From: Methylobacterium oryzae
GTDB lineage: Bacteria; Pseudomonadota; Alphaproteobacteria; Rhizobiales; Beijerinckiaceae
Assembly (NCBI RefSeq): GCF_021398735.1
Contig: NZ_CP090349.1
Location: forward strand, 5,764,001 to 5,828,000
Length of the DNA stretch: 64,000 nucleotides
Direction: 5' to 3'
Shown: positions 6,908 to 61,901 of the stretch, piece after piece
Position numbering within the stretch: position 1 is the stretch's first letter
How the letters are laid out: each line of letters starts with the position of its first letter
Translations under genes and position numbers: made by a program
The notes under the pieces: generated by a model
What the model was told of the DNA's origin: nothing
Seen by the model: the letters and a program-made list of their open reading frames with translations, nothing else
Databases searched by the model: none

Positions 6908-6999
6908 CGTCTTTGCGAGCGCAGCGAAGCAATCCAGGCGGCGCCATGCTCACCGATGTTGCGCTACCCTGGATTGCTTCGCTCCGCTCGCAAAGACGG
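6908..6999. repeat. Palindromic repeat pair, copy 2
   Basis: Both units carry the TTGC/GCAA outer stem. The left core is GC-GCA-GC and the right core GC-GGA-GC. The inner ends are CCAGG facing each other across a GC-rich centre. It sits between purF and the SDR gene, both on the minus strand. Confidence 0.9.
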
Positions 7000-12140: not shown

Positions 12141-12234
12141 CCGTCCTTGCGAGCGGAGCGAAGCAATCCAGGGATGCGCTACGGTCGGGAAGGGCCCGTT
12201 GCCCTGGGTTGCTTCGCTGCGCTCGCTAGGACGG
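12141..12234. repeat. Palindromic repeat pair, copy 3
   Basis: It fills the space between convergent radA and moaA. The left unit has the TTGC/GCAA stem and a GGA triloop. The right unit has TAGC/GCAA (one mismatch) and a GCA triloop. The inner ends CCAGGG face each other. Confidence 0.9.
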
Positions 12235-13832: not shown

Positions 13833-13925
13833 CGTCTTTGCGAGCGGAGCGAAGCAATCCAGAGTGGCGCCACGATTTTCGGCGTCGCGCACCCCTGGGT
13901 CGCTTCGCTGCGCTCGCGATGACGG
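13833..13925. repeat. Palindromic repeat pair, copy 4
   Basis: The left unit has the TTGC/GCAA stem and a GGA triloop. The right unit has a third stem type, TCGC/GCGA, and a GCA triloop. It lies between two plus-strand genes (DUF971 and cupin). Confidence 0.88.
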
Positions 13926-14353: not shown

Positions 14354-14446
14354 CCGTCATCACGAGCGAAGCGAAGTGACCCAGGGCAGCGCGACCTCTG
14401 CAGGCGTGGCGCCGCTGGATTGCTTCGCTCCGCTCGCAAAGACGGC
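14354..14446. repeat. Palindromic repeat pair, copy 5
   Basis: Between the convergent cupin and L,D-transpeptidase genes. The left unit has the TCAC/GTGA stem with triloop GAA. The right unit has the TTGC/GCAA stem with triloop GGA. Subtype order is reversed relative to copies 1 and 12. Confidence 0.9.
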
Positions 14447-19504: not shown

Positions 19505-20977
19505 TTACCGCAGCTCCTCGTGCCACGTCCGGCCGTCGCGCTCGATCAGCGCGATGGCGGCGGTCGGGCCCCAGCTCCCGGCCGGGTAGGGCCGCGGCGC
19601 CTCGGGCCGGTCGGCCCAGGCCTTGAGCACGCCGTCCGCCCAGGCCCAGGCCGCCTCGACCTCGTCGCGGCGCATGAACAGCGTCGCGTTGCCGCGGACC
19701 ACGTCCATCAGCAGGCGCTCGTAGGCGTCGGGGTAGCGCTGCTTGAAGGTCTCCTCGAAGGAGATGTCGAGGTCGGTCGGGCGCAGCCGCAGGCCGCCGG
19801 GCCCCGGATCCTTGGTCATCACCTCGAGCTTCATGCCCTCCTGCGGCTGCAGGCGGATCACGAGGCGGTTGGGCTCGCGGCCGAAGGCCTCCTCGGGGAA
19901 GATCGAGAACGGCGAGGCGCGGAACTGCACCACGATCTCGGAGAGCTTCTGGGGCAGGCGCTTGCCGGTGCGCAGGTAGAACGGCACCCCGGCCCACCGC
20001 CCGGACTGGATCTCGACCTTCATGGCCACGAAGGTCTCGGTCCGGCTCTCGTGGCCGAGCTCGGCGAGGTAGCCCTCGACCGGTTTGCCGTCGACGGCGC
20101 CCGCCACGTACTGGCCGCGCACCGTCACCAGCGGGATGTCCTGGCTGGTGATCGGCTTCAGGGCGCGCAGCACCTTGAGCTTCTCGTCGCGGACGGAGTT
20201 CGCCTCGAGATTGAGCGGGCTCTCCATGGCGGTGAGGCAGAGGAGCTGCAGGATGTGGTTCTGCAGCATGTCGCGCATCGCGCCCGACGTGTCGTAGTAG
20301 CCGGCCCGGCCCTCGACCCCCACCGTCTCGGCGACCGTGATCTGGACGTGGTCGATCACGTCGGAGGTCCAGAGCCGCTCGAAGATCGTGTTGGCGAAGC
20401 GGAGCGAGAGCAGGTTCTGGACCGTCTCCTTGCCGAGATAGTGGTCGATCCGGAAGATCTGCGATTCGGGGAAGACCTCGCCGACCGCGTCGTTGATCGC
20501 CCGGGCCGATTTCAGGTCCTTGCCGATCGGCTTCTCCAGCACGACGCGGGACTTCTCGCCGACGAGCCCGTGGGCGGCGAGGTTGCGGCAGATCGAGCCG
20601 TAGAGGTCGGGCGAGGTGGCGAGGTAGTAGGGCCGGACCTGGTCGGGCCGCTCGTCGAGCTTGGCGACGAGGTCGGTCCAGCCGCTGTCGCCGGCCCCGT
20701 CCACCGCGACGTAGTCGACGTGGTCGAGGAAGCGGTGGAGCATGTCGTCGGACAGGTCGGCCGCCGGCACGAAGCGCTTGAGCGCGTCGCGGGCGTGCTC
20801 GCGGAAGGCGTCGAGGGACAGTTCCGAGCGCGAGGCGCCGATGATCCGGCTGGTCTCGGGGATCTGGCCGTCGCGGAATCGGTAGAACAGGGCCGGCAGG
20901 AGCTTGCGCGCGGTCAGATCGCCGGTAGCGCCGAACACGACGCAGTCGAAGGAAGCGACGGGGATGATCGTGGCCAA
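19505..20977 (-). CDS. zwf: Glucose-6-phosphate 1-dehydrogenase
   Basis: Oxidises glucose-6-phosphate to 6-phosphogluconolactone for the pentose phosphate and Entner-Doudoroff routes. The nucleotide-binding motif is VVFGATGDLTARK near residue 10, EKPIGKDL near 170, and the active-site motif RIDHYLGKE near 197. I chose a TTG start at 20977: a GGGAG ribosome-binding site lies 7 bases upstream, and the resulting 490 residues match E. coli Zwf (491). The in-frame ATG at 21028 would add 17 basic residues not expected in the family. It is encoded alone, without pgl or edd next to it. Confidence 0.95.
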   Translation of the reverse strand: MATIIPVASFDCVVFGATGDLTARKLLPALFYRFRDGQIPETSRIIGASRSELSLDAFREHARDALKRFVPAADLSDDMLHRFLDHVDYVAVDGAGDSGWTDLVAKLDERPDQVRPYYLATSPDLYGSICRNLAAHGLVGEKSRVVLEKPIGKDLKSARAINDAVGEVFPESQIFRIDHYLGKETVQNLLSLRFANTIFERLWTSDVIDHVQITVAETVGVEGRAGYYDTSGAMRDMLQNHILQLLCLTAMESPLNLEANSVRDEKLKVLRALKPITSQDIPLVTVRGQYVAGAVDGKPVEGYLAELGHESRTETFVAMKVEIQSGRWAGVPFYLRTGKRLPQKLSEIVVQFRASPFSIFPEEAFGREPNRLVIRLQPQEGMKLEVMTKDPGPGGLRLRPTDLDISFEETFKQRYPDAYERLLMDVVRGNATLFMRRDEVEAAWAWADGVLKAWADRPEAPRPYPAGSWGPTAAIALIERDGRTWHEELR

Positions 20978-21135
20978 GTGCGGCTCCCGGGTGTCGTGCG
21001 CTGGTCTCGTGCGGCGGCTGCGTCGCACTGACCTAGCCCGTGTGCAAGGGCTTCGCCAGACGAGGGGCGCAGGCCAGCGCTGTCCGGTTCAGGGGGCGGC
21101 CGGGACAGATCCGGGCAAGTCCACGCTGCCACGCT

Positions 21136-21175
21136 CCGTCCTTGCGAGCGCAGCGAAGCAACCCAGGGCAGCGCG
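21136..21175 (+). repeat. Palindromic repeat unit, left flank of the GIY-YIG gene
   Basis: A complete unit with CCGTC outer end, TTGC/GCAA stem and GCA triloop, continuing through CCAGGGCAGCGCGG, the usual left half of the spacer in other pairs. It ends about 20 bp before the GIY-YIG start codon. Confidence 0.88.
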
Positions 21176-21196
21176 GCGGCGCCGAAGGACAGCACG

Positions 21197-21484
21197 ATGC
21201 GCGAGCCGGCCGTCTACATTATGGCGAGCCGCCGCAACGGCACGCTCTACACCGGCGTGACCTCGGACCTCGCACGGCGGGTCCACGAGCACCGGGAGGG
21301 GCTGCTTCCCGGTTTCACGAGCCGCTACGCTTGCCAACGCCTCGTCTGGTACGAGCGCTATCCCACGATGAATGAGGCCATCACCCGCGAGAAGCAGATC
21401 AAGGCGGGCTCACGGAAGAAGAAGCTCGCCCTGATCGAGGCGATGAATCCGGACTGGAACGACCTGTATCCCGATCTCGCGTGA
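21197..21484 (+). CDS. Single-domain GIY-YIG nuclease within a repeat pair
   Basis: A 95-residue protein consisting only of a GIY-YIG domain. The first motif is VYIMASRRNGTLYTGV (residues 5-20: GIY becomes VYI, YIG becomes YTG). The catalytic arginine is expected in DLARRVHEHREG (24-35) and the metal-binding glutamate in NEAITREKQIK (59-69). The end AGSRKKKLALIEAMNPDWNDLY is typical of the alphaproteobacterial YhbQ-like subgroup, which is often present in many copies per genome. The gene has its own ribosome-binding site (AAGGA). It sits between two inverted copies of the window's repeat, 21 bp from the left unit and 8 bp from the right. Role unknown; see findings. Confidence 0.9.
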   Translation: MREPAVYIMASRRNGTLYTGVTSDLARRVHEHREGLLPGFTSRYACQRLVWYERYPTMNEAITREKQIKAGSRKKKLALIEAMNPDWNDLYPDLA

Positions 21485-21492
21485 ACGGGTCC

Positions 21493-21537
21493 GGCGTCGC
21501 GGATCCCTGGATTGCTTCGCTGCGCTCGCAAAGACGG
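21493..21537 (-). repeat. Palindromic repeat unit, right flank of the GIY-YIG gene
   Basis: Inverted relative to the left unit. It starts with the usual right half of the spacer (GGCGTCGCGGATCCCTGG) and has the TTGC/GCAA stem and GCA triloop, identical in type to the left partner. Confidence 0.88.
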
Positions 21538-21581: not shown

Positions 21582-21622
21582 CCGTCATCACGAGCGGAGC
21601 GAAGTGACCCAGGGCAGCGCGA
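21582..21622 (+). repeat. Solo palindromic repeat unit, TCAC/GTGA subtype
   Basis: A single unit with stem TCAC/GTGA and triloop GGA, followed by CCAGGGCAGCGCGAGG. It lies 45 bp after the right flank of the GIY-YIG cassette and 12 bp before the stop of the convergent SDR gene. No partner is visible. Confidence 0.85.
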
Positions 21623-21633
21623 GGCCGCGCGGG

Positions 21634-22476
21634 TCACCCCGCCATGTACCGCTTGAACGCCTCGGCGTAGTCCGGATGCCAGCGCGAGAGGGCGGGCCGG
21701 TTCTCGACGATGTCGCCGGACGCCCAGGCGATCCGCTTCGCGTCCTGGGCGCGGGTGGTCTCGTTGTCCGGGCAGAGGATGTAGAAATCGCCGGCGGCGA
21801 GCCGGTCCAGCAGGAAGGCCACGGTCTCGTCGGGCGTCCAGGCCCCGGCGGGCTTCTCCGCGACGCCGCGGGCCTTCGTGAGGCCCGTGTAGACGAAGCC
21901 CGGGATCAGCAGGTGGGCCGTGGTGTGGCAGCCCTCCCGGTTGCGCAGCTCGTGGGCGAGCGCCTCGGTGACCGCCTTCACGCCCGCCTTCGAGACGTTG
22001 TAGGGCGCGTTGCCCGGCGGGGTGGTGATGCCCTGCTTCGAACCCGTGACGATGATCGCCCCGGGCTTGCCGCCCTCGATCATGCCGGGCGCGAAGGCGT
22101 GGATGCCGTTGACCACGCCGCCGAGATTGGTGCCCAGGATCCGCGTCCAGGTGTCGGCGTCGGAGAACAGTTTTCCGCCGGCCTCGATCCCGGCATTCAG
22201 CATCACCAGGGCGGGCGGCCCGCCCTTGGAGACGGCGGTCGCCAGGGCCTCGACGGCGCCCCGGTCCGACACGTCGGTGGGCACGGCGCGCACCTCGACG
22301 GCGGCGAGTTCGGCGACGGCGGCCCGGGCCGCGTCCAGGGCCGGCCCCGGCAGGTCGGCGAGCCAGACGTTCATGCCGGCCCGGGCGAAGGCCTGCGCGG
22401 CGGCGAGCCCGATGCCGCTCGCAGCCCCGGTGACGACCGCGCTGCGACCGGGGCTGATCGCGGGGTGCTGGCTCAT
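21634..22476 (-). CDS. SDR family NAD(P)-dependent oxidoreductase
   Basis: A 280-residue short-chain dehydrogenase. The cofactor motif is TGAASGIGLA near residue 16, followed by LADLP (an acidic residue after strand 2 suggests NAD preference) and LNAGIEAGG near 94. The catalytic motif is APYNVSKAGVKA near 158, with the serine in IVTGSKQG. The C-terminal 60 residues (DNETTRAQDAKRIAWASGDIVENRPALSRW) extend beyond the core. The substrate is unknown. It lies divergent from the xylanase gene, 156 bp apart. Confidence 0.88.
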   Translation of the reverse strand: MSQHPAISPGRSAVVTGAASGIGLAAAQAFARAGMNVWLADLPGPALDAARAAVAELAAVEVRAVPTDVSDRGAVEALATAVSKGGPPALVMLNAGIEAGGKLFSDADTWTRILGTNLGGVVNGIHAFAPGMIEGGKPGAIIVTGSKQGITTPPGNAPYNVSKAGVKAVTEALAHELRNREGCHTTAHLLIPGFVYTGLTKARGVAEKPAGAWTPDETVAFLLDRLAAGDFYILCPDNETTRAQDAKRIAWASGDIVENRPALSRWHPDYAEAFKRYMAG

Positions 22477-24916: not shown

Positions 24917-25300
24917 GCTGGGGACCGATCTCCTGTCCGGGCCTGGGCAGCCGTGGCGGCCCGGCCACGCGGTGTCCGACGGAACGCTTAAATGAAGGTG
25001 TCCTACTCCGTCATCGCGGGCGGAGCGAAGTGACCCGGGGCAGCGCGACGACGGGCGGCGTCGCGCCGTCTGGATCGCTTCGCTCCGCTCGCAAAGACGT
25101 GGGCGCCGGAGCCAGCAACGCATGAATGTATGAGCGCGACGTTCACGCCGACCGACATCCGCGCCGTCACACGCGGATGAATCAATGGCGGGATCGTGAA
25201 TCCCGATCCTGCCCGCTCTCGGGGTCGGAGGAGATTGGTAACCACGCCGGCCCATCATCCGGCCCGGTCGCGCCGCCTGAGCGCGTCGGGAGTGTTGCGT
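24917..25300. other. Intergenic region with a repeat pair, otherwise no gene seen
   Basis: Divergent upstream region of the acyltransferase and the large L,D-transpeptidase. A repeat pair occupies 25008-25100. I see no convincing promoter or small gene in the rest. An in-frame GTG at 25196 could extend the transpeptidase but would precede its signal peptide with 35 odd residues. Confidence 0.6.
25008..25100. repeat. Palindromic repeat pair, copy 8
   Basis: The left unit has the stem TCGC/GTGA (one G-T wobble) with triloop GGA. The right unit has TTGC/GCGA (one wobble) with triloop GGA. Both read as intermediates between the subtypes. This is the only pair located between divergent genes. Confidence 0.85.
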
Positions 25301-34679: not shown

Positions 34680-34772
34680 GGCGTCTTCGCGAGCGCAGCG
34701 AAGCAGTCCAGGGCAGCGCGATGCTGGCCGGCGTAGCGTTCCTGGATTGCTTCGCTCCGCTCGCAACGACGG
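34680..34772. repeat. Palindromic repeat pair, copy 9
   Basis: Between the convergent yqgE-like and secreted hypothetical genes. The left unit is TCGC/GCAG (imperfect) with triloop GCA. The right unit is TTGC/GCAA with triloop GGA. The spacer contains GGGCAGCGCGA as in other copies. Confidence 0.88.
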
Positions 34773-60776: not shown

Positions 60777-61843
60777 GCGGGGCGGCGCGGCACATCCCGG
60801 TCCTCGTGGTCCTGCCGCCGCGCGCGCTGCTGCTCGACCTCGCCGGCCCGCTGGAGGTGCTGCGGATCGCCGGCACCGTCCAGGACCGGATCGGCTTCGC
60901 GGTGGCGTACGCGGCACCGCGGGCGCTCACCCGCTGCTCGATCGGGCTCGACCTGGGCGGTGCCGGACCGCTGCCGGAGACGGTGGCGGACGGGACGGTC
61001 GTGCTCCTGCCGGGCTCCGCGACGCAGGTGCTCGGCGACGCGCCGGACCCGGCGGCCGACGCCGACGCGGAGGCCGAGATCGTCGCGTGGCTGCGCGGCG
61101 TCATCCGGCCGGGCCACACCGTGGCGACCGTCTGCGAGGGCGCGCTGCTCGCGGCGCGGGCCGGGCTCCTCGACGGCTACGCCTGCACCACCCACCATGC
61201 CAGCTGCGACCGGCTGAGGGCGGCGGCCCCCGAGGCCCGAGTCGTGGACAACCGCCTGTTCGTGCAGGACCGCGACCGGTTCAGCAGCGCCGGCGTCACG
61301 GCCGGCATCGACCTGATGCTGCACCTCGTGGCGGAGTGGGCGGGCCCGGCGACGGCGGTCGCCGTCGCGCGGACGCTCGTCGTGTACATGCGGCGCGGGC
61401 CCGACGATCCCCAGCTCTCGCCCTGGCTCGAGGGGCGCAGCCATCTGCACCCGGCGGTCCACCGGGCCCAGGACGCGATCGCCGCCGACCCGGCCCGGGA
61501 CTGGTCGCCGGCGCTGCTCGGCCAGGTCGCGGGCGCGAGCCCGCGCAACCTCGCGCGGCTGTTCCGGCTCCACGCCGGCATGACCGTGACGGACGCGGTC
61601 AACCGGTCCCGCGTCGCGCTAGCCCGGGAGCTGATCGCGCAGAGCGACCTCGGCCTGGAGCAGGTCGCCGAGCGCGCCGGCTTCGGCTCCGCCCGGCACA
61701 TGCGCCGCGTCTGGCGGCAGTTCCACGCAGCGGCGCCATCGCGCCTGCGTGCCGGACCCGCGGACGGGGCGTCCGCGCCGGTCCGCCCGAGGCACCCCGC
61801 GAGACACCTGTCCTTGCGAGCGGAGCGAAGCAATCCAGGGTAG
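60773..61843 (+). CDS. GlxA family AraC-type transcriptional regulator (DJ-1/PfpI N-terminal domain)
   Basis: A 356-residue regulator. Residues 8-190 form a DJ-1/PfpI-like domain (VLVVLPPRALLLDLAGPLEVL, TVATVCEGALLAARAGLLDG with the nucleophile-elbow cysteine). Residues 225-325 hold the AraC HTH pair (LLGQVAGASPRNLARLFRLHAGMT and LEQVAERAGFGSARHMRRVWRQFHAAAP). A GTG start overlaps the enzyme gene. The last residues ([11 protein letters not shown]) and the TAG stop come from a palindromic repeat inserted at the gene's 3' end, so the C-terminus appears to have been remodelled. Confidence 0.92.
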   Translation: MSGAARHIPVLVVLPPRALLLDLAGPLEVLRIAGTVQDRIGFAVAYAAPRALTRCSIGLDLGGAGPLPETVADGTVVLLPGSATQVLGDAPDPAADADAEAEIVAWLRGVIRPGHTVATVCEGALLAARAGLLDGYACTTHHASCDRLRAAAPEARVVDNRLFVQDRDRFSSAGVTAGIDLMLHLVAEWAGPATAVAVARTLVVYMRRGPDDPQLSPWLEGRSHLHPAVHRAQDAIAADPARDWSPALLGQVAGASPRNLARLFRLHAGMTVTDAVNRSRVALARELIAQSDLGLEQVAERAGFGSARHMRRVWRQFHAAAPSRLRAGPADGASAPVRPRHPARHLSLRAERSNPG

Positions 61844-61901
61844 CGCTCCGCTTTCCGGCGTCGCGCGCCCCTGGGTCACGTCGCTGCGCTCGTGATGACG
61901 G
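61808..61901. repeat. Palindromic repeat pair, copy 12
   Basis: The left unit (TTGC/GCAA, GGA triloop) overlaps the 3' end of the GlxA-type gene and supplies its last codons and TAG stop. The right unit is TCAC/GTGA with a GCA triloop. The spacer is GGTAGCGCT...GGCGTCGCGCGCCC. Confidence 0.92.

Follow-up and report, generated by a model that had tools for sequence, protein, structure and literature searches.

The window, a 64,000-nucleotide stretch of Methylobacterium oryzae DNA (genome G000 of our set), carries a gene for a 95-residue Ssn-like GIY-YIG nuclease of clade A (positions 21197-21484, plus strand), which is intact, with an ATG start and no internal stop, and lies between two inverted REP units. 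The left unit (21136-21175, plus strand) starts with CCGTCC at 21136, continues through the core TTGCGAGCGCAGCGAAGCAA (21142-21161) and the inner tail CCCAGGGCAGCGCG to 21175, and ends 21 bp ahead of the ATG. The right unit (21493-21537, minus strand) begins 8 bp past the stop codon with the inner tail GGCGTCGCGGATCCCTGG from 21493 and has its outer end, GACGG, at 21537; it is of the same core variant, its core at 21512-21531 being the exact reverse complement of the left one. An AAGGA motif 7 bp upstream of the ATG (21185-21189, plus strand) is likely the ribosome binding site, and a third REP unit, oriented like the left unit, follows at 21582-21621 (plus strand). The neighbouring genes anchor the orthologous site in other genomes and are, on the left, the listed open reading frame at 19505-21028 (minus strand), which we take to be zwf (glucose-6-phosphate dehydrogenase), and on the right an open reading frame at 21634-22476 (minus strand), presumably a gene for an SDR oxidoreductase. 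An earlier note on this DNA had described such an intact gene between two inverted units, and its coordinates and distances proved correct.

In Pfam the 95-residue protein hits the GIY-YIG family (PF01541, E 1e-14), whereas NCBIfam yielded no family for it. Its structural model adopts a confident GIY-YIG fold with a mean pLDDT of 96. A fold search returned UPF0213, Slx1 or UvrC in each of the first 19 PDB rows, with only the first row below E 0.001. The closest solved structures by sequence and fold are the UPF0213 proteins (PDB identifiers 1zg2 and 1ywl), yet these share 31% and 24% identity with it in the fold search, and we know of no repeat link for UPF0213 proteins of known structure. Conserved residues include Y7, Y18, G20, R28, H32 and E65, among which Y7, Y18, R28 and E65, presumably the GIY-YIG catalytic residues, each occur in 97% or more of the rows that have the column in question (146-150 rows). 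The predicted fold and the putative catalytic residues place the protein in the GIY-YIG nuclease superfamily. Values of dN/dS are 0.11-0.37 in seven of eight gene pairs (from 45 possible pairs) and 0.71 in the eighth. A separate GIY-YIG match in the same genome (G000:C3:89118-89351; L003) falls in an open frame of 244 aa that lies on a contig of 117 kb, and homologues of the nuclease are present in 11 phage records, all at less than 60% identity.

The 20-bp core occurs 218 times in the genome at up to two mismatches, as against no occurrence of a reversed control pattern. We sampled 59 distinct units (up to three substitutions) from the window and from 30 loci (L004-L033) around the first 30 exact matches, and 57 of these have an inverted partner within 75 bp under a lenient test allowing up to five substitutions; the two partnerless units are the ones that flank the nuclease gene. 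Given the inverted units around the gene and the pairing of nearly all sampled units, the gene occupies the centre of a REP pair that it splits in two. In the paired units the consensus inner tails also match both linkers that join the gene to its units, so that the proposal of the gene in the spacer position, with linkers equal to the two spacer halves, is borne out. Across the 59 units the CGTC tag and the CCAG tail each carry 1.7-2.0 bits, and the outer flank beyond the tag is not conserved. One correction concerns the repeats being palindromic: three gene-less pairs fold better than shuffled sequences with DNA energies (z -10.8, -8.3 and -3.7), but the two single units that were folded, taken with part of their linkers, do not (z +1.3 and +1.5).

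These features fit the CGTC-tagged REPs, which the main text of Di Nocera et al. (2013; PMC3733652) describes as mostly alphaproteobacterial inverted dimers with a CCA-type tail. The repeats of the present genome share the terminal CGTC tag and the CCA-type tail, and inverted dimers predominate here too. As to the complementary AT at the first two stem positions and the loop of 4-5 given for the superfamily, the base after CGTC is mostly C, T or A in the 59 units, and the two single units fold no better than shuffles. According to the same text, CGTC REPs seem to lack a dedicated transposase and have no associated transposase genes, the enzyme being left open, and CGTC-1 of Neisseria is equated with dRS3 (PMC3733652); neither Methylobacterium nor GIY-YIG occurs in that main text.

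Gene-less REP pairs are found in the window at 6909-6997, 12143-12231 and 61810-61899 and, with approximate ends, at 13834-13922, 14356-14443, 25011-25098 and 34683-34770. Some have been gained or lost among five sister genomes: the pair at 6909-6997 is present in one (G098) and absent in G095, G043, G103 and G017, that at 25011-25098 is shared with G103 only, and that at 14356-14443 is absent from the orthologous place in all five. No precise empty site could be recognized for the gene-less pairs, the edges being ragged in the four that were aligned, and the insertion at 14356-14443 is neither cut at the unit ends nor accompanied by a clean target duplication. By eye, this insertion also carries outer stretches that are alike in inverted order, and outer inverted stretches are included in some of the insertions.

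To compare the surroundings of the homologues with chance, the 200 bp upstream of each gene was searched against the reverse complement of the 200 bp downstream. From 94 rows, the genus sample comprised 65 clade A and B loci and five clade C rows, with 24 others, fragments included, left out; 206 pairs of stretches more distant from the gene, but within the same loci, served as controls (99th percentile, 14.95). This percentile is exceeded at 53 of the 70 loci, namely at 20/24 in clade A, 29/41 in clade B and 4/5 in clade C, leaving 4/24, 12/41 and 1/5 below it. Other collections gave 83 loci, three of which had flanks too short to be used; of the remaining 80, 63 pass the 99th percentile of 407 control pairs, in a sample that leans to near kin, since part of it is the best 80 of 528 relatives, and that includes two loci (L157 and L185) from genomes already in the genus set (G098 and G034). 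The wider sample spans alpha-, beta- and gammaproteobacteria; single metagenome-assembled genomes labelled Hydrogenedentota and Syntrophaceae pass and those labelled Elusimicrobia and Nitrospinaceae fail. Inverted repeats thus flank GIY-YIG homologues far more often than they occur in control flanks, both in the genus and elsewhere, and a chance co-location of nuclease and repeats is ruled out against the control flanks.

The type of repeat follows the clade of the nuclease, and each main repeat type comes with a nuclease clade, an aspect that the present repeats add to the CGTC REP superfamily. Clade A (72-100% identity) has TGCGAG-class units at 23 of 24 loci, clade B (about 50-64% identity) has mostly the CATTCCGGGG or CCGGGAAAGGG types, and clade C (about 38% identity) mostly the CTCATCCTGAGG type. 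On a homologue tree of 150 rows, from which three partial homologues were dropped and in which 10 rows without a class went uncounted, the six repeat classes require 10 changes against a shuffled mean of 51.2, a value as low as this arising in none of 200 shuffles, though with 95 columns most forks of this tree are poorly resolved and the smallest class (CCTCGGG, three rows) does not cluster. More distant homologues also have repeats of their own. The Neisseria gonorrhoeae homologue, 61% identical over 92 residues and possibly the published Ssn, is flanked on both sides by CGTCATTCCCGC repeats, one of them right after the stop codon, and a Shinella and a Planktothrix homologue are accompanied by CGTCATCCTCGGG and GTCATTCTGAG repeats, respectively. 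The Planktothrix homologue on plasmid p1 of P. agardhii (L156, 1180-2110) has a type IIL restriction gene on one side and the DISARM gene drmA on the other, and many GTCATTCTGAG repeats surround it. Two records of the plasmid collection that are named as N. gonorrhoeae plasmids (NZ_CP119140.1 and NZ_CP119142.1) are 2.17 Mb long, the size of a chromosome. Five of the 10 alignment columns that vary most with repeat class, in a ranking that still includes near-kin effects, fall in residues 67-75, at the junction of two helices in the model, and the other five are columns 23, 34, 46, 47 and 57. We would guess that residues 67-75 form a putative reading head for the repeat.

The presence of a clade also goes with the abundance of its repeat. 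Across 111 genomes of the genus, with thresholds of 10 (A), 10 (B1) and 50 (C) copies that were picked after the counts had been seen, with broken genes scored as present and with descent ignored, repeat A reaches its threshold in 15/23 genomes with gene A against 11/88 without it (odds ratio 13, p 1.1e-6), repeat B1 in 10/36 with gene B against 3/75 (odds ratio 9.2, p 6e-4), and repeat C in 13/22 with gene C against 6/89 (odds ratio 20, p 2.6e-7). Off-diagonal associations are seen too, for gene A with repeat C (p 0.004), gene C with repeat B1 (p 5e-4) and gene B with repeat A (p 0.03), and some genomes are therefore rich in several repeats. The earlier note had held that similar repeat numbers in genomes lacking the gene would make the link a coincidence. 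By that test the 11 genomes that lack the clade-A gene but hold at least 10 repeats, up to 120 in G103, count against the link. Conversely, eight of the 23 genomes with a clade-A gene have fewer than 10 copies of the exact repeat type; in G045 and G101 the units at the gene are of another stem variant.

A similar contrast is seen among 26 close relatives, the nearest when the neighbouring SDR gene is compared, where the 10 with an open clade-A gene hold 66-149 repeats and the 16 others, one of them with a frameshifted gene, hold 2-120, 13 of these having at most 28 (Mann-Whitney p 2.5e-4). A descent-aware test gives the same direction in 4.1 of six independent pairs and never the opposite one (median p 0.125), six pairs being too few for significance. 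The label of an open gene changes nine times on a tree of 30 genomes built from the SDR gene, six of the changes being forced by well-supported branches. The close genomes that lack the gene and are nevertheless rich in repeats (G103, G083 and G071) may represent recent gene losses. In clades A and B, 11 of 65 loci contain stops or are split by a frameshift or an insertion, which would be a high turnover if this were a housekeeping gene.

At the home site, between the zwf-like and SDR genes, the clade-A gene is open in ten genomes and frameshifted in G017. A degenerate remnant of the gene lies between the units in G089 and, by eye, also in G027; in G041 and G006 the segment of two pairs and the gene is inverted, and G083 has a gene-less pair only. 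By eye, the stretch from unit 1 to unit 3 is replaced in G103, G043 and G071 by a single unit, flanked on the left like unit 1 and on the right like unit 3, as after a deletion between direct units, but this could also be an older empty state; G043, unlike the other two, is repeat-poor.

The 24 clade-A genes occupy four loci (11, 3, 2 and 7 genes) and one additional place in G062, and 22 of the 23 genomes have a single clade-A copy. Homologues of more than one clade may occur together in a genome, and some genomes have clade B at two loci (G091, G087, G028 and G022). Two other clade-A loci were compared for empty sites. The first lies beside a gene that we take to be polA, and 12 of 24 fetched loci were compared there: the nuclease gene is present in G026, G085 and G096, both gene and units are missing from G084, without a clean join, and the left flank is missing in 8/12, including G078, which has no units in its 4 kb. 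At the second locus, where all 24 fetched loci were compared, the gene is present in G045 and G101, one genome lacks the flank and 21 are gene-less, of which only G040 shows units, of a variant type. G046 has neither gene nor repeats there, more likely through loss, since its flank is nearer to that of G045 (92%) than the flank of G101 is (89%). In its intergenic stretch (L282), the place taken by the nuclease cassette in G045 and G101 is held by an unrelated palindrome, GAGCATCGTCCCGAAAGGTGGGAACCGGCTTTCGG.

The extra copy in G062 is the only relocation for which an empty site could be observed. It matches the home-locus copy of the same genome over 590 bp at 92% identity, both ends of the match being REP units, and carries a stop codon; in G000 its place and the home site are about 18 kb apart, while the two lie on different contigs in G062. 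The orthologous place holds a plain REP pair in G091, G006, G083 and G087, has no REP pair in G041, G068 and G088, and could not be compared in G028 and G066, where the left flank was not found. G062 has the nuclease cassette inside a pre-existing pair with the right-hand unit doubled, and a gene found within a pair that is plain in four relatives can therefore move from pair to pair. As the units are too alike, no crossover point could be placed by eye within the G062 unit, and either an enzyme or plain homologous recombination may have made the move. The relocation looks like recombination from repeat to repeat, or targeting, rather than classical transposition. Orthologous loci of gene and repeats thus differ in presence and absence among sister genomes, and together with the flanking repeats and the agreement of repeat type with clade these differences uphold the link between nuclease and repeats that the earlier note had put forward.

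That note had further suggested that the 402-bp unit may be the autonomous parent of the 90-bp pairs, these being MITE-like deletion derivatives. Such a transposon would move itself through its inverted repeat ends, and the pairs would have arisen from it by internal deletion. The placement of the gene in mid-pair with matching linkers, the gene remnant between units in G089 and, by eye, in G027, the further copy elsewhere in G062 and the absence of the 14356-14443 pair from five sisters speak for such an element. Against it speak the single clade-A copy in nearly every genome and the distribution of the 24 genes over four loci plus one extra copy; the empty site in G062 is a repeat pair and not naive DNA, with one unit doubled, and the pair at 14356-14443 has neither the ends nor the duplication expected. 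Several gene copies, precise insertion in repeat-free sites and target duplication, the hallmarks of a transposon, were not found at these loci. The autonomous parent is only partly supported, and not in the form proposed, and the few loci and the entry into an existing pair make it improbable. We regard as equally improbable that recombination acted passively and by itself, with RecA moving, inverting and deleting DNA between repeats that are ordinary 45-bp homologies and with the nuclease as a bystander. The joined unit of G103, G043 and G071, the inversion in G041 and G006 and the gain in G062 all break within units and require no dedicated enzyme, but passive recombination leaves unexplained why nuclease clades lie in their own repeat types in distant bacteria, and why copy number differs with the state of the gene.

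Mobilization of the repeats by a RAYT, with an unrelated nuclease gene trapped between them, is hardly credible, since a Y1 (RAYT) transposase is matched in 15 of the 111 genus genomes and not at all in G000, and we reject RAYT as the mobiliser here, although Di Nocera et al. (PMC3733652) describe an association with RAYTs for REP pairs of the GTAG kind. Somewhat less improbable than the transposon, yet still unlikely, is a host-serving barrier, in which the nuclease would cut incoming single-stranded DNA at the repeats and tune natural transformation or recombination, any spread of repeats being a by-product. The flanking repeats of the N. gonorrhoeae homologue would suit such a role, which sits less well with the frequent loss and breakage of the gene, as seen in the nine changes of the open-gene label and the broken loci of clades A and B.

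We consider it probable that the locus belongs to a partner system of repeat and nuclease, that is, dispersed CGTC-tagged REP pairs together with a GIY-YIG nuclease specific for that repeat, whose gene is lodged in the middle of one pair. What is observed is the anatomy of the locus, the match of repeat type and clade, the contrast in copy number, presence/absence differences and an inversion bounded by units, and one cassette transfer. In such a partner system the nuclease would cut single-stranded repeat DNA in trans, perhaps at forks, in cruciforms or in incoming DNA, and repair of the cut would copy repeat-bounded DNA, so that REP pairs are kept and slowly spread and the nuclease gene is now and then carried along. 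It would work in the manner of RAYT/REPIN, with an unrelated nuclease replacing the tyrosine transposase. In the REPtron, likewise, the gene is flanked by REP units and is thought to serve dispersed REPs in trans, its product being a Y1 (HUH) tyrosine transposase there and a GIY-YIG nuclease here. The gene itself would be a mostly vertically inherited, dispensable and selfish-looking resident and not a frequently jumping transposon.

A link of this kind is probably not new, although the earlier note knew of no report. A 2025 paper in Nature Communications reportedly describes Ssn, a family of site-specific single-stranded nucleases in the GIY-YIG superfamily with many homologues, which is said to cut single-stranded repeat DNA in Neisseria and to tune natural transformation or recombination there. 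If so, the link between nuclease and repeats is known in kind and the present locus is a new case of it. Ssn is reportedly likewise a small GIY-YIG protein with cognate multicopy repeats around its gene, and the repeats of the present nuclease also adjoin the gene and are multicopy in the genome. Cleavage of single-stranded DNA reportedly belongs to Ssn and would extend to the present nuclease by analogy, whereas the position within a split pair, the copy-number contrast and the relocation from repeat to repeat come from the present analysis. Among the literature matches listed, GIY-YIG genes and CGTC REPs are not brought together in any title or opening of an abstract, a term search of a 2025 survey of REPs (PMC12306157) gave no hit, and neither the identification with CGTC REPs at large nor the copy-number contrast nor the move from pair to pair was found in print.

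A broader and more tentative possibility, which we hold with less confidence than the partner system itself, is that the whole CGTC REP superfamily, across phyla, has its long-missing dedicated enzymes in the small GIY-YIG nucleases. Each clade would read its own repeat, cut it when single-stranded and drive copying from repeat to repeat, and nuclease and REP pairs together would form a non-transposase mobile system whose gene moves from pair to pair. Relatives of the gene in other bacteria are paired with repeats in a similar way, which suggests that the nuclease studied here serves a widespread repeat family as its partner and is no ordinary jumping gene. If a repeat-specific GIY-YIG protein is the partner of the CGTC REPs, REP systems have been built by RAYT and, independently of kinship, by GIY-YIG nucleases. 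The flanks could then be used to match repeats with nucleases across many genomes, and the spread, the cutting sites and the specificity code of CGTC REPs would become directly testable.
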